A stretch of DNA of 60,465 nt from an uncultured Armatimonadota bacterium. Its GTDB lineage: Bacteria > Armatimonadota > Fimbriimonadia > Fimbriimonadales > Fimbriimonadaceae. Location: contig CAILEM010000137.1 of assembly GCA_903833215.1 (NCBI GenBank), positions 1-60,465 of the forward strand. Direction: 5' to 3'. The translations under genes and the position numbers were made by a program. Shown one piece after another: positions 38,914-45,596 of the stretch. The stretch's first letter is position 1. Each line of letters begins with the position of its first letter. The notes under the pieces are model-generated. The model was not told the DNA's origin, ran no database searches, and saw only the letters and a list, made by a program, of their open reading frames with translations.

Positions 38914-39777
38914 TCAGAAGTCGGACTTCGCGACGAGTCGACGCACGTCTTCCCACACACTTTGCAGGTCGGACAGCAGCGGTGATTGGGCTCGAGACAC
39001 GGCGACCAGATACGGATCGATGTCAGCCAACAGCAGATGCTCTTCAGAGACAGGGCCTTCAGCCAGCACTTTGCCAAACGGATCAACGATCATCGAGCCG
39101 CCGATGAACCCTTTGCCGCCCTCAAATCCGCAAAGCTGGGCGCTCGCGCAGAACAGTCCATGCTCCTCGCAGATTCCCCGGAAAAGTCGTCGATAACGAT
39201 CATGGTTTTCGACATCCTGACCAGAAAAACCTCGTCCCGGCGACGCTGCAGGGACAAGGATGAGTTGTGCACCATTGACGGCACACAGCGTCGGTAAGAG
39301 GCCGTGCCACACGTCTTCGCAGATAAGCACCGCGATCTTGCCAAATCTTGTTTCAAACACCCCGAGTTCCCGCCCTCGGTTGACGAACCGCTCTTCATCA
39401 AAAACCCCGTAAGTGGGCAGGAAGAACTTTCGATAGACTCCGACCAATCGCGGCCCGTTCTGAGAGAGTTCGATATACGCAGCGCTGTTGTACAGAGTGC
39501 CTTCGTTGTTTTCGTAAAAGCCAAGAACTACGTCGACGGTTCCAGTAAGTCCCTTGCCCATCCGCTTCCATAGCGCCGCCATCAACTGGGTTGCGGTGAG
39601 CGAAGACTCAAGGACGCCACCTTCGAGGAAGTACCCGCTGGTAGAAGCTTCAGGCAGAAGAACCAAGTCAGCCCCTTCGGCGTGAGCTTGTAACACGATC
39701 TCGGAAATTCGATCCAGATTCCGATCGACTTCGGCCTTGAAGGGAGCAAATTGTGCGCAAGCGACCTTAAAGGCCAT
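38914..39777 (-). CDS. Nitrilase-superfamily carbon-nitrogen hydrolase
   Basis: 287 aa. The Glu-Lys-Cys triad is readable: Glu in LVLLPEASTSGYF, Lys in YRKFFLPTYGVFDE, and Cys in AVLICEDVWHGLLP. It also has ENHDRYRRLFRG and GGSMIVDPFGKVL. It hydrolyses a C-N bond in an amide or nitrile; the closest pattern is NAD synthetase-associated or amidase branches. It is followed by a WYL regulator and preceded by the AddA-like helicase gene ending 10 bases away. Confidence 0.85.
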   Translation of the reverse strand: MAFKVACAQFAPFKAEVDRNLDRISEIVLQAHAEGADLVLLPEASTSGYFLEGGVLESSLTATQLMAALWKRMGKGLTGTVDVVLGFYENNEGTLYNSAAYIELSQNGPRLVGVYRKFFLPTYGVFDEERFVNRGRELGVFETRFGKIAVLICEDVWHGLLPTLCAVNGAQLILVPAASPGRGFSGQDVENHDRYRRLFRGICEEHGLFCASAQLCGFEGGKGFIGGSMIVDPFGKVLAEGPVSEEHLLLADIDPYLVAVSRAQSPLLSDLQSVWEDVRRLVAKSDF

Positions 39778-39787
39778 GCCGTGAAGT

Positions 39788-42094
39788 TTACTCGCGAATC
39801 TTAACTCCCGGCATCTGAGCCGGGTCGATTACTCCCGCAATCAACTTCGATACGGTTGGGACGCTTGTGACGGGAGACAAGCAAATGCAAAGTCGGGACT
39901 TGGCCCGGGTAAGCGCCACGTACAAAACGCGCTTCTCCTCTTCGTCGTCCAACCGCTTCCGCTTTTCGGTGAGCATCTTGTGCATCAATGCTTGGCCCTT
40001 TGAGAACTTCGTCGCGACAAGCCCGAGCGAGGGTTCGACGACGACGTCGCGTGCTCGCCCCGACAGTCTTTTATCGGTCTGTGGGATCACTACCACCGGC
40101 CACTCAAGCCCCTTTGCCTTGTGGATCGTCATGATCTTCACCAGGTCGGCGGCATCATCGTCGGCAGGAGCGTCTCCCTCTTTGTGGCGAAGATCCTGAA
40201 TCTCCCGAATCCGCTCTGCAAACTCCAATGGCCCAAGTTCAGGCTCTTGAGCGGCGAGCGTCAGAAGCTTCCGGGCATTGGCAAGCAAGTGATCGGCTCG
40301 GTTACGCCTGGCCAAAGCTGGCAAATAGTCCGACTTCGCAAATATTTCCGAAAGCACTTCCCATGCCGACAGTCGGTCCGCGTGTTGCCGCAAGGGACTG
40401 TACCAAGCCAGGAATGCGCTCAATCTTGGAATATCCTCCACGAGCGGCGGCTCGAAGGTCGCCAATTGCTCAATGACAGGAGAGTTCAGGCCGAGCAACG
40501 TAATGCTATCCAGCGTGAGACCAACCATCGGACTCCGCAGCATCGCCAACATGGAAAAGTCATCGTAGGGATCAGCGAGAGCTCGGAGGGTATTCGCCAA
40601 GTCCCGAACCTCAAGTCTCGTATAAAACTTCTCCGAGCCACCTGCGATTCGATTCGGAATTCCAGCATCGGTTAGCGATTGTTGAATCGCCAAAGCACCC
40701 ATGCTGTCTCGAACGAGGACGGCGATGTCGCTTCGACTTACGTTCTCTCGCTCGATGAGTTGCTGGATGAATCGGGCCGTCGTCCGCGTATCCTTCGGCC
40801 CCTGTCGCCAAATCTCAACCCCCTCAAACGATGTCTGCTCGTCGGCGTCAAAGTCCATTGGCCCTGTATTCAGGTTCATGGGCTTGTAGTCCGGCCCCCA
40901 CAGGCGGCTGAAAACAAGGTCGACGAAATTCAAGATGCCAGGCACCGACCTCCAGTTCTTGGCGAGTCGTTTGGTGGACGTCGCCTCTGAACGTTGTTTG
41001 AACAAACGCACATCCGCCTGTCGAAATCCGTAGATCGACTGTTGGGCATCACCGACCATCATGATCCGTTCCGAACCGAGGAGGTTCAGCAACTGATATT
41101 GAATCGGATTGACGTCCTGCGACTCGTCTACCATGACGACCAGATATTGGTTTCGAAGCCGTTGTCGGGTGACCTCGGACCGCTTTAGGAGCCGCTCGGC
41201 GCGAATCTCTAGTGCGGCAAAGTCAAGCGATTGCCGCCGTAGCATCTCCCGGTCCATGCGCCACCAGGCAGCGCATGCAAGTTGGACAAGGCCGCAAGTA
41301 TGGCGTACCGCCTCGTCCTCTGCGACAAGATCGATCTTTCCTTTCGCCCAGGCCGGAACGGGCACCCCAGCCGCCTTACATGACAATTGGGTACGTGTGT
41401 TGAGGTCGGCGGACCCATCGGCATCAAATAGCGCCAGTGCCTTCTCTGGCACTTCAGCTCGAACTCGATCCTCCCAGAATGCGCGTAGGCTTGTTGCGTT
41501 GGCATACCACCGAGTGACCGACTCGCGGTCGAATGGGCTGCTTCTCAATTCCTGAAGAACGCGTTCGACCGCTGTTTCTAGAATGCCGTACGGAGATTTG
41601 TTGTCACCAAACCCATGGCGCTTTCCTGCGAGATAGCGCATGAGTCCCTCGGCTTCGGGCTCGTCTTCTAGGGATGATGCCAGGGCCTCTCGCACGCATT
41701 CAACAGTGAGTCGCGTGGACTGCGCCTCGCTCATGATTTCAAACTGCGGATCGAGCCCCGCCTCCAGCGAATTCTCACGAAGGAGCCTTTCACAGAAAGA
41801 GTGAATCGTTTGGATTGGTCCGGTTTCTGCAACTTGAGCGTGGTCATACAGCCCTTTGGCCCGAAGCCGACCGACGATACGCTCTTTCATCTCGGCCGCA
41901 GCCTTTTTCGTGAACGTGATGGTCAGGATCTGGTCTGGGCCAAGTCGCTCCTCTTCGACGTGGCGCAGGTACCGTTCGACAAGCACGAACGTCTTGCCTG
42001 CTCCCGCAGCGGCGATCACCGTGAACACCTTTTCTGGCGAGGTGATCACCGTATTCTGCTCGTCGGTGGGTTTTCGCACTTCGAGATTAGCCAT
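39788..42094 (-). CDS. AddA-like UvrD helicase without nuclease domain
   Basis: 768 aa from ATG 42094, which overlaps the AddB-like stop by 8 bases. Superfamily 1 motifs are present: Walker A AAAGAGKT (Lys34), ITFTKKAAAEMKERI, Walker B MVDESQDVNPIQY, GDAQQSIYGFRQAD, KIMTIHKAKGLEWPVV, and motif VI YVALTRAKSRL. The protein ends about 35 residues after motif VI. AddA normally runs to about 1200 aa with a C-terminal PD-(D/E)XK nuclease, which is absent here. It should translocate on single-stranded DNA in double-strand-break repair. Confidence 0.85.
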   Translation of the reverse strand: MANLEVRKPTDEQNTVITSPEKVFTVIAAAGAGKTFVLVERYLRHVEEERLGPDQILTITFTKKAAAEMKERIVGRLRAKGLYDHAQVAETGPIQTIHSFCERLLRENSLEAGLDPQFEIMSEAQSTRLTVECVREALASSLEDEPEAEGLMRYLAGKRHGFGDNKSPYGILETAVERVLQELRSSPFDRESVTRWYANATSLRAFWEDRVRAEVPEKALALFDADGSADLNTRTQLSCKAAGVPVPAWAKGKIDLVAEDEAVRHTCGLVQLACAAWWRMDREMLRRQSLDFAALEIRAERLLKRSEVTRQRLRNQYLVVMVDESQDVNPIQYQLLNLLGSERIMMVGDAQQSIYGFRQADVRLFKQRSEATSTKRLAKNWRSVPGILNFVDLVFSRLWGPDYKPMNLNTGPMDFDADEQTSFEGVEIWRQGPKDTRTTARFIQQLIERENVSRSDIAVLVRDSMGALAIQQSLTDAGIPNRIAGGSEKFYTRLEVRDLANTLRALADPYDDFSMLAMLRSPMVGLTLDSITLLGLNSPVIEQLATFEPPLVEDIPRLSAFLAWYSPLRQHADRLSAWEVLSEIFAKSDYLPALARRNRADHLLANARKLLTLAAQEPELGPLEFAERIREIQDLRHKEGDAPADDDAADLVKIMTIHKAKGLEWPVVVIPQTDKRLSGRARDVVVEPSLGLVATKFSKGQALMHKMLTEKRKRLDDEEEKRVLYVALTRAKSRLCICLSPVTSVPTVSKLIAGVIDPAQMPGVKIRE

Positions 42095-44972
42095 CTTCGG
42101 GCTCCATTTCCGTGTCGAACGGTGAGTCTTCCTCGCCAAATCCCCGAGACCGGCGACACAGCTCACCGAAGTCGCACCAATCGCAGTGGTCGCCTTTGAT
42201 CGCATCTACCCGGGCATCCACGATGTTTCGCATGGCATCGGAAAGAGCCAGCTTCACTTTTTCAAAAAACACTTTTTTCGAGACGCCCGCGTCATCTTCG
42301 GTAGCCAAATCCACGACCTGTAAACCATCGCTGGCGCTGGAGGGCAAAGGTTCAGATGCTTTGCGCCCCATGATTACCAAAGAACGCTTGCCCGCCATCC
42401 CCTCGACTTCCAACGCCCCCTCCCTGCCTGGCTCATGAATTGCCAAAAGGTGAAGGCCGAGATACAACTGGTCGGCTTCGGAAAGCCCTTTAGCGGAATC
42501 GATGGGCGAGCCATAAAGGTGAACGACATTGTAGGAATTCAGTCGCGAGATTCCAGGGACTACGCCTTCCAACTTCACGTCTCCCGGCATATTCGACCGA
42601 ACGCCATGGGTGCCAAACGCGACGTTCGACTTAACCGACCCAGAGGTTTTGGGCCATTGCTCTCGTGAACGTGATTCGCGCTGCAGCCAATCCCTTATCA
42701 GTCGTTGACCACCGGCACGTAATAGGCGCATTTCCCATTCGGGCACCTCGGCATATAGTAAATCGAGTTGGGAATCGAGTGCGATGATCATCGCCCGCTC
42801 TGCATCCGCCATGTCATCTTTGGTAAGAAGCTGAGAAACTTGGGGAAGCCGCCTAAGTGTGCTCCATCTTGCCGGTTGGCGCTTGACTCGGACCTTCAGC
42901 ACATGCCTTGCCAAATACTGAAATGGGCATTGTAGGGCATCCCGCAAGACATTGGGTTGAAACGCAGCATCGATCGAGGGTCGAATCGCACTTCGTGCTG
43001 GTTCTGATTCGAGTCCAATTGCCAATGGAGATTCCCTTGGTCCTTCGTAGGCACGCCGTAAGTTGATATCCGCTTCAGCCAGGCACTTCTCAATGGCTGG
43101 AGCGAGTTCGGGTCTTGGGTAGTTATGCGATTCGATCTTGCCATGGGCTCGTTCGACTTCGCTCAAATAGAAGGCAGGGATATTGTCTTTTTGGTCGTCA
43201 GCCAGCGGGTAGCTAAAAACAATGGATCGATTGGCAGCAGCACAAACGCGATAGAACTCATCCCTCTCAGCCTGCGCCTTGGATCGTGAGTCAGGCAGAG
43301 GCGGTTGGTCAGGGCGAAGTGCACTGATCTCGGCTCGTTCGACATCTGTAAGAATAGGGTCCTCAGATCGTCGTCTTGGGAATACGCCTTCGAGCATCCC
43401 GAGAACAAACAAATGGTCCACGTCACCAATCACATTTGGGTCCGAAGTGACACGCACGCCATTCTCGGCAAACGGGATGCTAACGTCACCGTCGGTCCAG
43501 AGCTTTTCGCAAAGGGCAACAAACTCCTTCAGGGACATCGAACTCGACTGGGTGACGTCATCTACCGAGATGTGGTTGACGAGAAGACGCTCCATTTGGT
43601 TGAGTGCACGTCGATCACGCTCATCCATGAGCCCGCCCTTGTTTTCAAGTGTTACCCAAGGTAGCTTCTGCTCGCGGTTCAATTCCTTTAGGATCCCGAA
43701 CCATTCGGGCAACCTAAGCGATCCACTGACAGCTTTGCGGCGCCAATCGAGAAGCGCTTTTAGCCATTCGTGAGCCTCAGAATTCTCTTGAACCCAGTCT
43801 TCGAGAGCCTGCCACTGACCATCGCGTTTGAGGTAGCAGTCGCGCAGTCGCATATCCAATCCATGCTGATCGGAACCTGAAAGATGCAGGTAACTGCTCC
43901 TCAAAACGGGAGCAAGCGTTCGGACGTCTTTCGAAGCGCAGAACTTCAAGGCAGATAATGTTAGGCGTCCGAATGAATTAGTTAGGAGGGGCGCCCTTCT
44001 TGCCATGCGGATCGGAACGTTGAAACGCTTCGCCGCCGATTCAATCAACGGGGCATACGATTCTAGGTCGCGCACATAAATTCCCACCCGGCTGAACTCT
44101 CCCGCCGCCACGCAACCACGCAAAGCCCACTCCGCTTCGGCAAGAGGATCGGCAGTGCTCACTTTGGATACTGAAATCTTCGGCCCATCGTGTTCGGCCC
44201 CCGAGAACAGGTTCCGAGCGAGCTTGTTTCCATCCCCCATATCGATAGGGCGAGCTTTCAGTAGTGCAATCGATCGAGCAGCTCCGGCAAAGATAGGGGC
44301 GTCGGTGGCATGTCGATCGAACACGACCGTCACGTCGACACCATAATCGGCGATCCACTTCAGCCACCGAATTCTTAGCGGATCCTCTTCACTCCCAACG
44401 AATACAAGCAATCTTTCGAGACTGTCTTCCAACTCAAGCGTGGATTCGAAACAAGAGAGCATTTGGTCTGTGTGAAGCTGCCTACCAAGGTTCTTCAGGA
44501 TATCGAGAAGACTTCGGTCCAACTCGGCGAGTTCCTTGAGCTTGGTTGAGAGCCGCGTACCCGTCTTCTCGGCTAGGTCGTCCATCGCATCCGCATCAAT
44601 GCCCCAGTGACGAAGCTCGTCCAGAGTGCTCCCGATGGCGGCATGGAATCCAGGAAAACCAGAGGAGGCAGAAAACGGGGACTCGTCAGTGAACTCTCCG
44701 CAGGCATGAGAGATTGCTGCGGTTCTTTGTCCCCCCTGTGCCAACGGCATCGCCTCCTCTCCGCAAAGGACAAGGATGTTGCGCACGACTTCACCGAACG
44801 ACATCACGTCAAGGGTCGAGTCGTCGCCAAGCATCTGTTTGCATACTGGCAAAAGCGAATCGGCAAACGCAGTGACGGTGCCGCCTTTTCTTTTTTCGAA
44901 GTCACGAAGGATCGGTCCAAGGCTCGTGGAACCTGGGATCGCTCGTAGAACCTTAATGCGACCTTTCGCCAT
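42087..44972 (-). CDS. AddB-like protein with Fe-S cysteines, catalytic motifs lost
   Basis: 961 aa from ATG 44972. The N-terminus (VLRAIPGSTSLGPIL) occupies the place of AddB's Walker A but lacks GxGK[ST]. Later helicase-like segments (LFVLGMLEGVFPRR, EFYRVCAAANRSIVFSYP) match AddB. Four Fe-S cysteines are retained: one in ALQCPFQYLARH and Cx2Cx5C in HCDWCDFGELCRR. The nuclease core expected as G.iDR.D...viDYKTG reads GVVPGISRL...NVVHLYGSP, so the acidic and Lys residues are gone. It is probably a structural or DNA-binding partner of the helicase. Confidence 0.78.
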   Translation of the reverse strand: MAKGRIKVLRAIPGSTSLGPILRDFEKRKGGTVTAFADSLLPVCKQMLGDDSTLDVMSFGEVVRNILVLCGEEAMPLAQGGQRTAAISHACGEFTDESPFSASSGFPGFHAAIGSTLDELRHWGIDADAMDDLAEKTGTRLSTKLKELAELDRSLLDILKNLGRQLHTDQMLSCFESTLELEDSLERLLVFVGSEEDPLRIRWLKWIADYGVDVTVVFDRHATDAPIFAGAARSIALLKARPIDMGDGNKLARNLFSGAEHDGPKISVSKVSTADPLAEAEWALRGCVAAGEFSRVGIYVRDLESYAPLIESAAKRFNVPIRMARRAPLLTNSFGRLTLSALKFCASKDVRTLAPVLRSSYLHLSGSDQHGLDMRLRDCYLKRDGQWQALEDWVQENSEAHEWLKALLDWRRKAVSGSLRLPEWFGILKELNREQKLPWVTLENKGGLMDERDRRALNQMERLLVNHISVDDVTQSSSMSLKEFVALCEKLWTDGDVSIPFAENGVRVTSDPNVIGDVDHLFVLGMLEGVFPRRRSEDPILTDVERAEISALRPDQPPLPDSRSKAQAERDEFYRVCAAANRSIVFSYPLADDQKDNIPAFYLSEVERAHGKIESHNYPRPELAPAIEKCLAEADINLRRAYEGPRESPLAIGLESEPARSAIRPSIDAAFQPNVLRDALQCPFQYLARHVLKVRVKRQPARWSTLRRLPQVSQLLTKDDMADAERAMIIALDSQLDLLYAEVPEWEMRLLRAGGQRLIRDWLQRESRSREQWPKTSGSVKSNVAFGTHGVRSNMPGDVKLEGVVPGISRLNSYNVVHLYGSPIDSAKGLSEADQLYLGLHLLAIHEPGREGALEVEGMAGKRSLVIMGRKASEPLPSSASDGLQVVDLATEDDAGVSKKVFFEKVKLALSDAMRNIVDARVDAIKGDHCDWCDFGELCRRSRGFGEEDSPFDTEMEPEDG

Positions 44973-44990
44973 CCGCTTTTGGAGTGTATC

Positions 44991-45596
44991 ATGCCCCTGG
45001 TGGCTGTAACTGTTTGGAGTACGCGAAGAAAGTGGTTGGGGAACCTTATTCCGGCCGTTTTTTGGCTGCCCCCTGCCGTTGCTGGCATTTATCAGATAGC
45101 AGCAAAGGGCCAACTCATCGGCCTTGGTCTGTGGCTCCTCATTGCGTCCACAGTTCTCGGTTGGCTCGCCGTGAATTTCTTTGGGTTCTTTGAGAACGCG
45201 AAGATGCGCGCTTCTCTTGAGCGAATTCTAACCACGGAAGGCAAGAGCCTCGCTGGAGAGAAGGTGTTCGTAGGATTCGCCACACCGAAATACTCCAGCA
45301 TGCTAGACGCGCATGAGGATGTCGGATTCCTTCGCATCCTGTCTGATAAGCTCATCTTTGTCTCCGAGTCACGAACGATTGAGATTCAGAAGGCAGACGT
45401 CCACGGCGTCCGTTTCCGCCCAAACGTCCACAGCGTGCTTCTGCTAGGCCGCTGGGTCAGTGTCGAGGCAAAAGTCGGCGATCAGCAGATTCGGCTGTTG
45501 GTCGAACCCCGCGAGAAACCCACGCTCGTCGGTAACCGCTTCTACGGCAAGAAACTCTTGGCTACTCTCCGCGCTTGGGTACCTACACTGAAATAA
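44991..45596 (+). CDS. Hypothetical membrane protein with PH-like domain
   Basis: 201 aa from ATG 44991, with GGAG at 6-base spacing. Two membrane helices (NLIPAVFWLPPAVAGIYQI and GLGLWLLIASTVLGWLAVNF) are followed by a soluble beta-rich part (GFLRILSDKLIFVSESRTIE, IQKADVHGVRFRP) that resembles bacterial PH-like domains. No enzyme motif. Divergent from the AddB-like gene with only 18 bases between starts, so their promoters overlap each other's coding sequence. Confidence 0.55.
   Translation: MPLVAVTVWSTRRKWLGNLIPAVFWLPPAVAGIYQIAAKGQLIGLGLWLLIASTVLGWLAVNFFGFFENAKMRASLERILTTEGKSLAGEKVFVGFATPKYSSMLDAHEDVGFLRILSDKLIFVSESRTIEIQKADVHGVRFRPNVHSVLLLGRWVSVEAKVGDQQIRLLVEPREKPTLVGNRFYGKKLLATLRAWVPTLK

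Follow-up and report, generated by a model that had tools for sequence, protein, structure and literature searches.

To our knowledge, each of the bacterial break-processing complexes studied so far (RecBCD, AddAB and AdnAB) has at least one nuclease. Neither AddB in AddAB nor RecC in RecBCD serves as a motor, and an inactive helicase part is the normal state of AddB. AddAB (also named RexAB; PDB entries 3u44 and 3u4q) combines the SF1 motor AddA with AddB, which consists of this inactive helicase part and a C-terminal nuclease-type domain with an Fe-S cluster. In the studied AddAB enzymes the nucleases of both subunits are active (PMC4824097), and the Fe-S cluster is, according to the work cited there (Yeeles 2009), essential for the binding of broken DNA. 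RecC is a DNA-guiding scaffold in which an inactivated helicase part is found together with a PD-(D/E)xK domain without metal ligands (Rigden 2005, PMC1185551). An active helicase with a dead nuclease is known from Escherichia coli RecB1080CD, where RecJ and RecFOR take over the trimming and the loading of RecA (PMC3375238). AddA of Thermus thermophilus HB27 has 857 aa (PMC9751324), a length that would be too short for a helicase plus a nuclease domain. Among the papers searched, none contained the whole word Armatimonad together with the whole word AddA.

Here, we describe two overlapping genes in a stretch of 60,465 nucleotides (the window, contig C137) from the genome of an uncultured Armatimonadota bacterium (6.2 Mb, 99.97 percent complete). 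They encode an AddAB-like pair in which neither of the two nucleases of the studied enzymes is present. We consider it fairly probable, from comparative sequence analysis, that the pair represents a naturally nuclease-free AddAB, i.e., an end-binding helicase with the strands being cut in trans.

The AddA-type SF1 helicase (39788..42094, minus strand, 768 aa) overlaps with its start the end of the AddB-like gene by a few bases. Its motor motifs (Walker A, DExQD, QxxR and motif VI) are complete, as already described in a first-pass annotation, and they are invariant in the helicases; the Pfam families UvrD-helicase (2.3e-58) and UvrD_C (2.9e-32) are both recognized. The top PDB match is AddA of AddAB (3u44/3u4q, 1.2e-44). 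AddA is also the top NCBIfam model (TIGR02785), with a score of 267.8 bits that is far under the equivalog cut-off of 707.65 and a match that reaches position 875 of the 1234 profile positions. The protein ends about 30 residues past the final UvrD_C match and a Pfam search over its 768 residues gave no PDDEXK match, which confirms that the C-terminal PD-(D/E)xK nuclease domain of AddA is missing. Such a domain is not hidden by a frameshift after 39788 either, because the stop codon (TAA at 39790-39788) is followed 10 bases further by the ATG (39777) of a carbon-nitrogen hydrolase gene (38914..39777, minus strand; Pfam CN_hydrolase).

The AddB-like scaffold subunit (42087..44972, minus strand, 961 aa) is labelled P0002, and residue positions are given here in the numbering of this label. 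The gene span assumes the ATG at 44972; an upstream TTG at 45113 is likewise open. The matches to ADDB_N (17 bits) and to TIGR02773 addB (50 bits) lie under the Pfam and the curated cut-off, respectively. Relatives from the families f4 and f5 score 43-49 and 126-145 bits with these models, and AddB homology over the helicase-like part is unbroken from P0002 to their proteins. With phmmer against the PDB, AddB was retrieved at an E-value of 0.98 only, and the NCBIfam search of P0002 revealed no match to a recC model. The helicase-like part is inactive: at the site where relatives read, e.g., GLPGAGKS, the sequence is AIPGSTSLG and the Walker A motif is lost. This absence had been noted before and stands, but its interpretation as the unusual loss of one motor does not, as AddB/RecC does not act as a motor in AddAB or RecBCD.

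The inactivated PD-(D/E)xK-type domain of this protein is located at 42144..42971 on the minus strand (about residues 715-990, both ends approximate). It matches PF12705 (PDDEXK_1) with 27 bits, yet the match spans the entire profile (5-247 of 247). The alignment comprised 65 AddB-like proteins and, from the window genome, the complete AddB. The 28 intact relatives show H, D, RxD, DYK, Q and Y at 100 percent, whereas P0002 has Q, P, GxS, GSP, Y and H; its catalytic positions 758, 853, 856, 868-870, 884 and 888 are occupied by Q, P, S, GSP, Y and H. The full active-site set is kept by no protein of the families f1 and f2 (all 35 sampled are dead, the 28 intact ones being found elsewhere), and in f2 the first Asp alone survives. 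A replacement [DE]xK sought in the columns of the f1 alignment is not conserved anywhere, the commonest column having it in 4 of 29 proteins. Cysteines 729, 977, 980 and 986 are retained at 100 percent in f1, in f2 and in the intact relatives. Thus, both the replaced nuclease core and the four Fe-S cysteines proposed in the first-pass annotation are supported by the alignment. A motif RExxxRxxW (residues 812-820) is invariant in the nuclease-dead proteins of f1 and f2. Of its residues, R817 and W820 show no conservation among intact relatives, a pattern that suggests a new role of the dead domain. AlphaFold predictions with two-row alignments gave mean pLDDT values of 37.0 and 34.9 for the two proteins of the pair, too low to be of use.

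Like RecC, P0002 unites a dead helicase part and a dead nuclease domain in one scaffold, and the loss in AddB reached this RecC-like condition independently. There are also clear differences. RecC is without the Fe-S cysteines, which are kept in the window AddB. The partner RecB is a nuclease whereas the window helicase has no nuclease domain, and P0002 is not a member of the recC family.

Nuclease loss is not peculiar to the window genome. Of the 113 genomes of the host's order, 111 have a relative of P0002 and 111 one of the helicase, and both genes are present as single copies in all 88 good genomes. They overlap in the window, are adjacent in most f1 and f2 genomes and separated in most f3 genomes. 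Comparison with the AddB homologues of related genomes shows that the loss is fixed in the two sister families f1 and f2, so that the suspected combination of one active motor, an Fe-S scaffold and no nuclease applies to both families. RecB1080CD, in contrast, is a laboratory point mutant with lower fitness, whereas the state in the window is natural and fixed. In a tree of AddB built without the nuclease region, i.e., from the part before this domain, all f1 and f2 sequences are on one side of a fully supported branch; hence a single loss of the active site, in their common ancestor, is probable. A second, independent loss concerns the AddB of a family f13 genome (locus L069, G157:C1, 6206-9496), where H is replaced by R, K by T, Q by R and Y by M while both D are kept. 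This genome is a single contig of 3.44 Mb with a short helicase and a free nuclease.

An intact or almost intact Walker A is found in the AddB-like proteins of f4, f5, f12 and f24 and in most of those from f13 and the outgroup; the motif is degenerate throughout f1 and f2 and in six of eight f3 proteins. As this distribution over the families differs from that of nuclease loss, the two were separate steps. Short helicases are found across the phylum in f1-f5, f12, f13, f19 and f24, whereas full-length AddA occurs in f8, f21, f32-f35, f41-f43 and most of f20; for the order relatives the absence of the nuclease was judged by protein length, and the full-length outgroup AddA of locus L081 does contain the PF12705 domain. 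Since short AddA is spread wider than the dead AddB active site, a stepwise loss can be deduced from the distribution, in which the AddA nuclease would have gone before that of AddB. Close f1 genome pairs with unsaturated synonymous sites gave dN/dS values of 0.05-0.06 for AddB (two pairs) and 0.05-0.10 for the helicase (three pairs). Taken by itself, the dead nuclease-like domain (0.07-0.08, two pairs) is as constrained as the rest of AddB. With values of 0.05-0.10, indicating strong purifying selection, these genes are not decaying.

A search of the window genome for a separate RecB-type nuclease was successful. On contig C106 a free RecB/Cas4-type nuclease (PF12705, 261 aa) is encoded, with an intact active site (GRLDRVD...VVDYKSG) and Fe-S-type cysteines. 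It is homologous over its length to the dead AddB domain (hhalign probability 96.8) and also shares Fe-S cysteines with it, but its DYK is intact and it is encoded alone. The gene occurs in 108 of the 113 genomes of the order and in all 88 good ones. In G088, G060, G034 and G085, four f1 genomes that are near-complete and consist of one or two contigs, it encodes the sole PDDEXK_1 protein above the Pfam cut-off; G015 and G012 have just one further PDDEXK_1 match, the AddB-like protein. Outside the order, it was detected in 22 of the 27 genomes whose AddA is short versus 2 of the 22 whose AddA is full-length (Fisher 4e-7, a value inflated by common descent as relatives are not independent). Within family f12 the presence of short AddA and free nuclease coincides (3/3 versus 1/9). 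In three of ten f19 genomes with AddB (completeness 80-93 percent) the free nuclease was not found. Concerning gene proximity, a single gene separates it from addB in G112, where both are on one strand, and all three genes lie inside 13 kb in G110 but far apart in G098. The families f10 and f11 commonly have the free nuclease while the AddB-like pair is absent. A helper-protein search covering RecJ and RecO detected both in the window genome with 514 and 110 bits, respectively. The need for an outside nuclease, one of the two options named in the first-pass annotation, is thus plausible, with the free RecB-type enzyme and RecJ both being encoded.

The search for a second AddA was positive as well. 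Contig C146 of the window genome contains a complete AddAB with both PD-(D/E)xK domains (locus L123, G000:C146, 1-10633), so the nuclease-free pair is not the sole end processor there. Directly downstream of this AddAB and in the same orientation lies a type II CRISPR system, with cas9 (1009 aa), cas1, cas2 and an array whose repeats are spaced at 66 nt. As a general replacement of the pair it was rejected, since AddB of this type occurs in 4 of the 113 genomes of the order and the copy in G018 does not adjoin cas genes; the nuclease-free pair is therefore the only AddAB found in most relatives. Two further loci of the window genome, L003 (G000:C163, 432-2475) and L004 (G000:C10, 3-1995), show a transposase-like gene overlapping a RecB/Cas4-type PD-(D/E)xK gene and possibly represent a mobile element with its own nuclease.

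As for the neighbourhood of the pair, the CN_hydrolase gene is conserved directly behind the helicase gene in 10 or more of 20 f1 loci; it has no obvious link to DNA repair and is possibly a mere neighbour. A divergent gene at 44979-45596 encodes a 205-aa protein without significant Pfam family, and roughly half of the f1 loci have a similar gene upstream of their AddB-like gene. When the f1 neighbourhoods were inspected for a nuclease gene beside the pair, just these two genes were seen. A reading as defence system was rejected: the PADLOC matches of the helicase to GajB and to a DRT helicase reflect shared UvrD homology, and for the AddB-like protein PADLOC gave no matches.

Several other explanations of the pair have to be considered. 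Decaying genes, or a sequencing artefact with a nuclease hidden by a frameshift, have nothing in their favour except the missing motifs. This explanation has next to no probability left and is already refuted by the comparison with relatives: the same state is seen in 35 proteins of separate assemblies, the pair is intact and under the purifying selection given above, and the next gene follows after 10 bases. It is very unlikely, too, that the AddB-like domain is still a nuclease with non-standard residues. The fold can be recognized in full length by PF12705, and the acidic E902 as well as R910 are conserved in f1; against this, none of the residues H, D (either one), K, Q and Y is left, a [DE]xK is shared by at most 4 of 29 proteins in any column, and the column of E902 aligns outside the catalytic set of the intact relatives.

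More weight, though still little, can be given to a change of job, in which the pair left break processing for recombination and would act as a motor-plus-clamp elsewhere, for instance in stalled-fork remodelling, in protein stripping or on incoming DNA, with breaks being processed by RecQ, RecJ and SbcCD alone. The defining activity is gone with both nucleases, and the invariant R817 and W820 gained by f1 and f2 could be signs of altered function. Yet both genes are kept together in every good genome, and the Fe-S cysteines are invariant in proteins whose AddAB counterpart is described to need the cluster for binding broken DNA (Yeeles 2009, as cited in PMC4824097). A three-gene split AddAB, with the cutting moved to the separate RecB/Cas4-type nuclease that would dock on or follow the helicase complex, is a tentative reading that we regard as possible but doubtful. 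It is supported because the free nuclease accompanies short AddA in nearly every lineage and is mostly missing where AddA is full-length, as well as by the coincidence of presence within f12, the gene proximity in G112 and G110 and the sole PDDEXK_1 protein of four f1 genomes. It is weakened because f10 and f11 hold the free nuclease without the pair.

In a nuclease-free AddAB acting with enzymes in trans, which we prefer, the AddA subunit would be the sole motor, by homology a 3'-5' SF1 translocase, and the AddB subunit a RecC-like scaffold. The dead domain of AddB may have been kept because its Fe-S cluster would grip the DNA end and shape a strand channel. The pair would form a complex, bind the end of a break and unwind the DNA from it. 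As all cutting sites are lost and the pair is nevertheless kept, cutting would be the task of a separate enzyme, or would not occur. We infer a hand-over to a nuclease in trans, for which RecB1080CD with RecJ and RecFOR offers a precedent: RecJ may trim the 5' strand, the free RecB/Cas4-type nuclease, a candidate partner of the pair, may act together with or instead of it, and RecA would be loaded next, probably by RecFOR.

Beyond the initial observation in the window, the loss of the nuclease sites is fixed in two sister families, apparently stepwise and RecC-like, and a detached nuclease exists that plausibly takes part. A natural complex without any nuclease would part unwinding from cutting, in the manner of Sgs1-Dna2 resection in eukaryotes, and the intermediates found inside this one phylum illustrate a route from AddB to a RecC-like scaffold. 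The pair makes it testable what purpose an Fe-S cluster and a nuclease fold serve once cutting is gone, and how resection is controlled in such bacteria.
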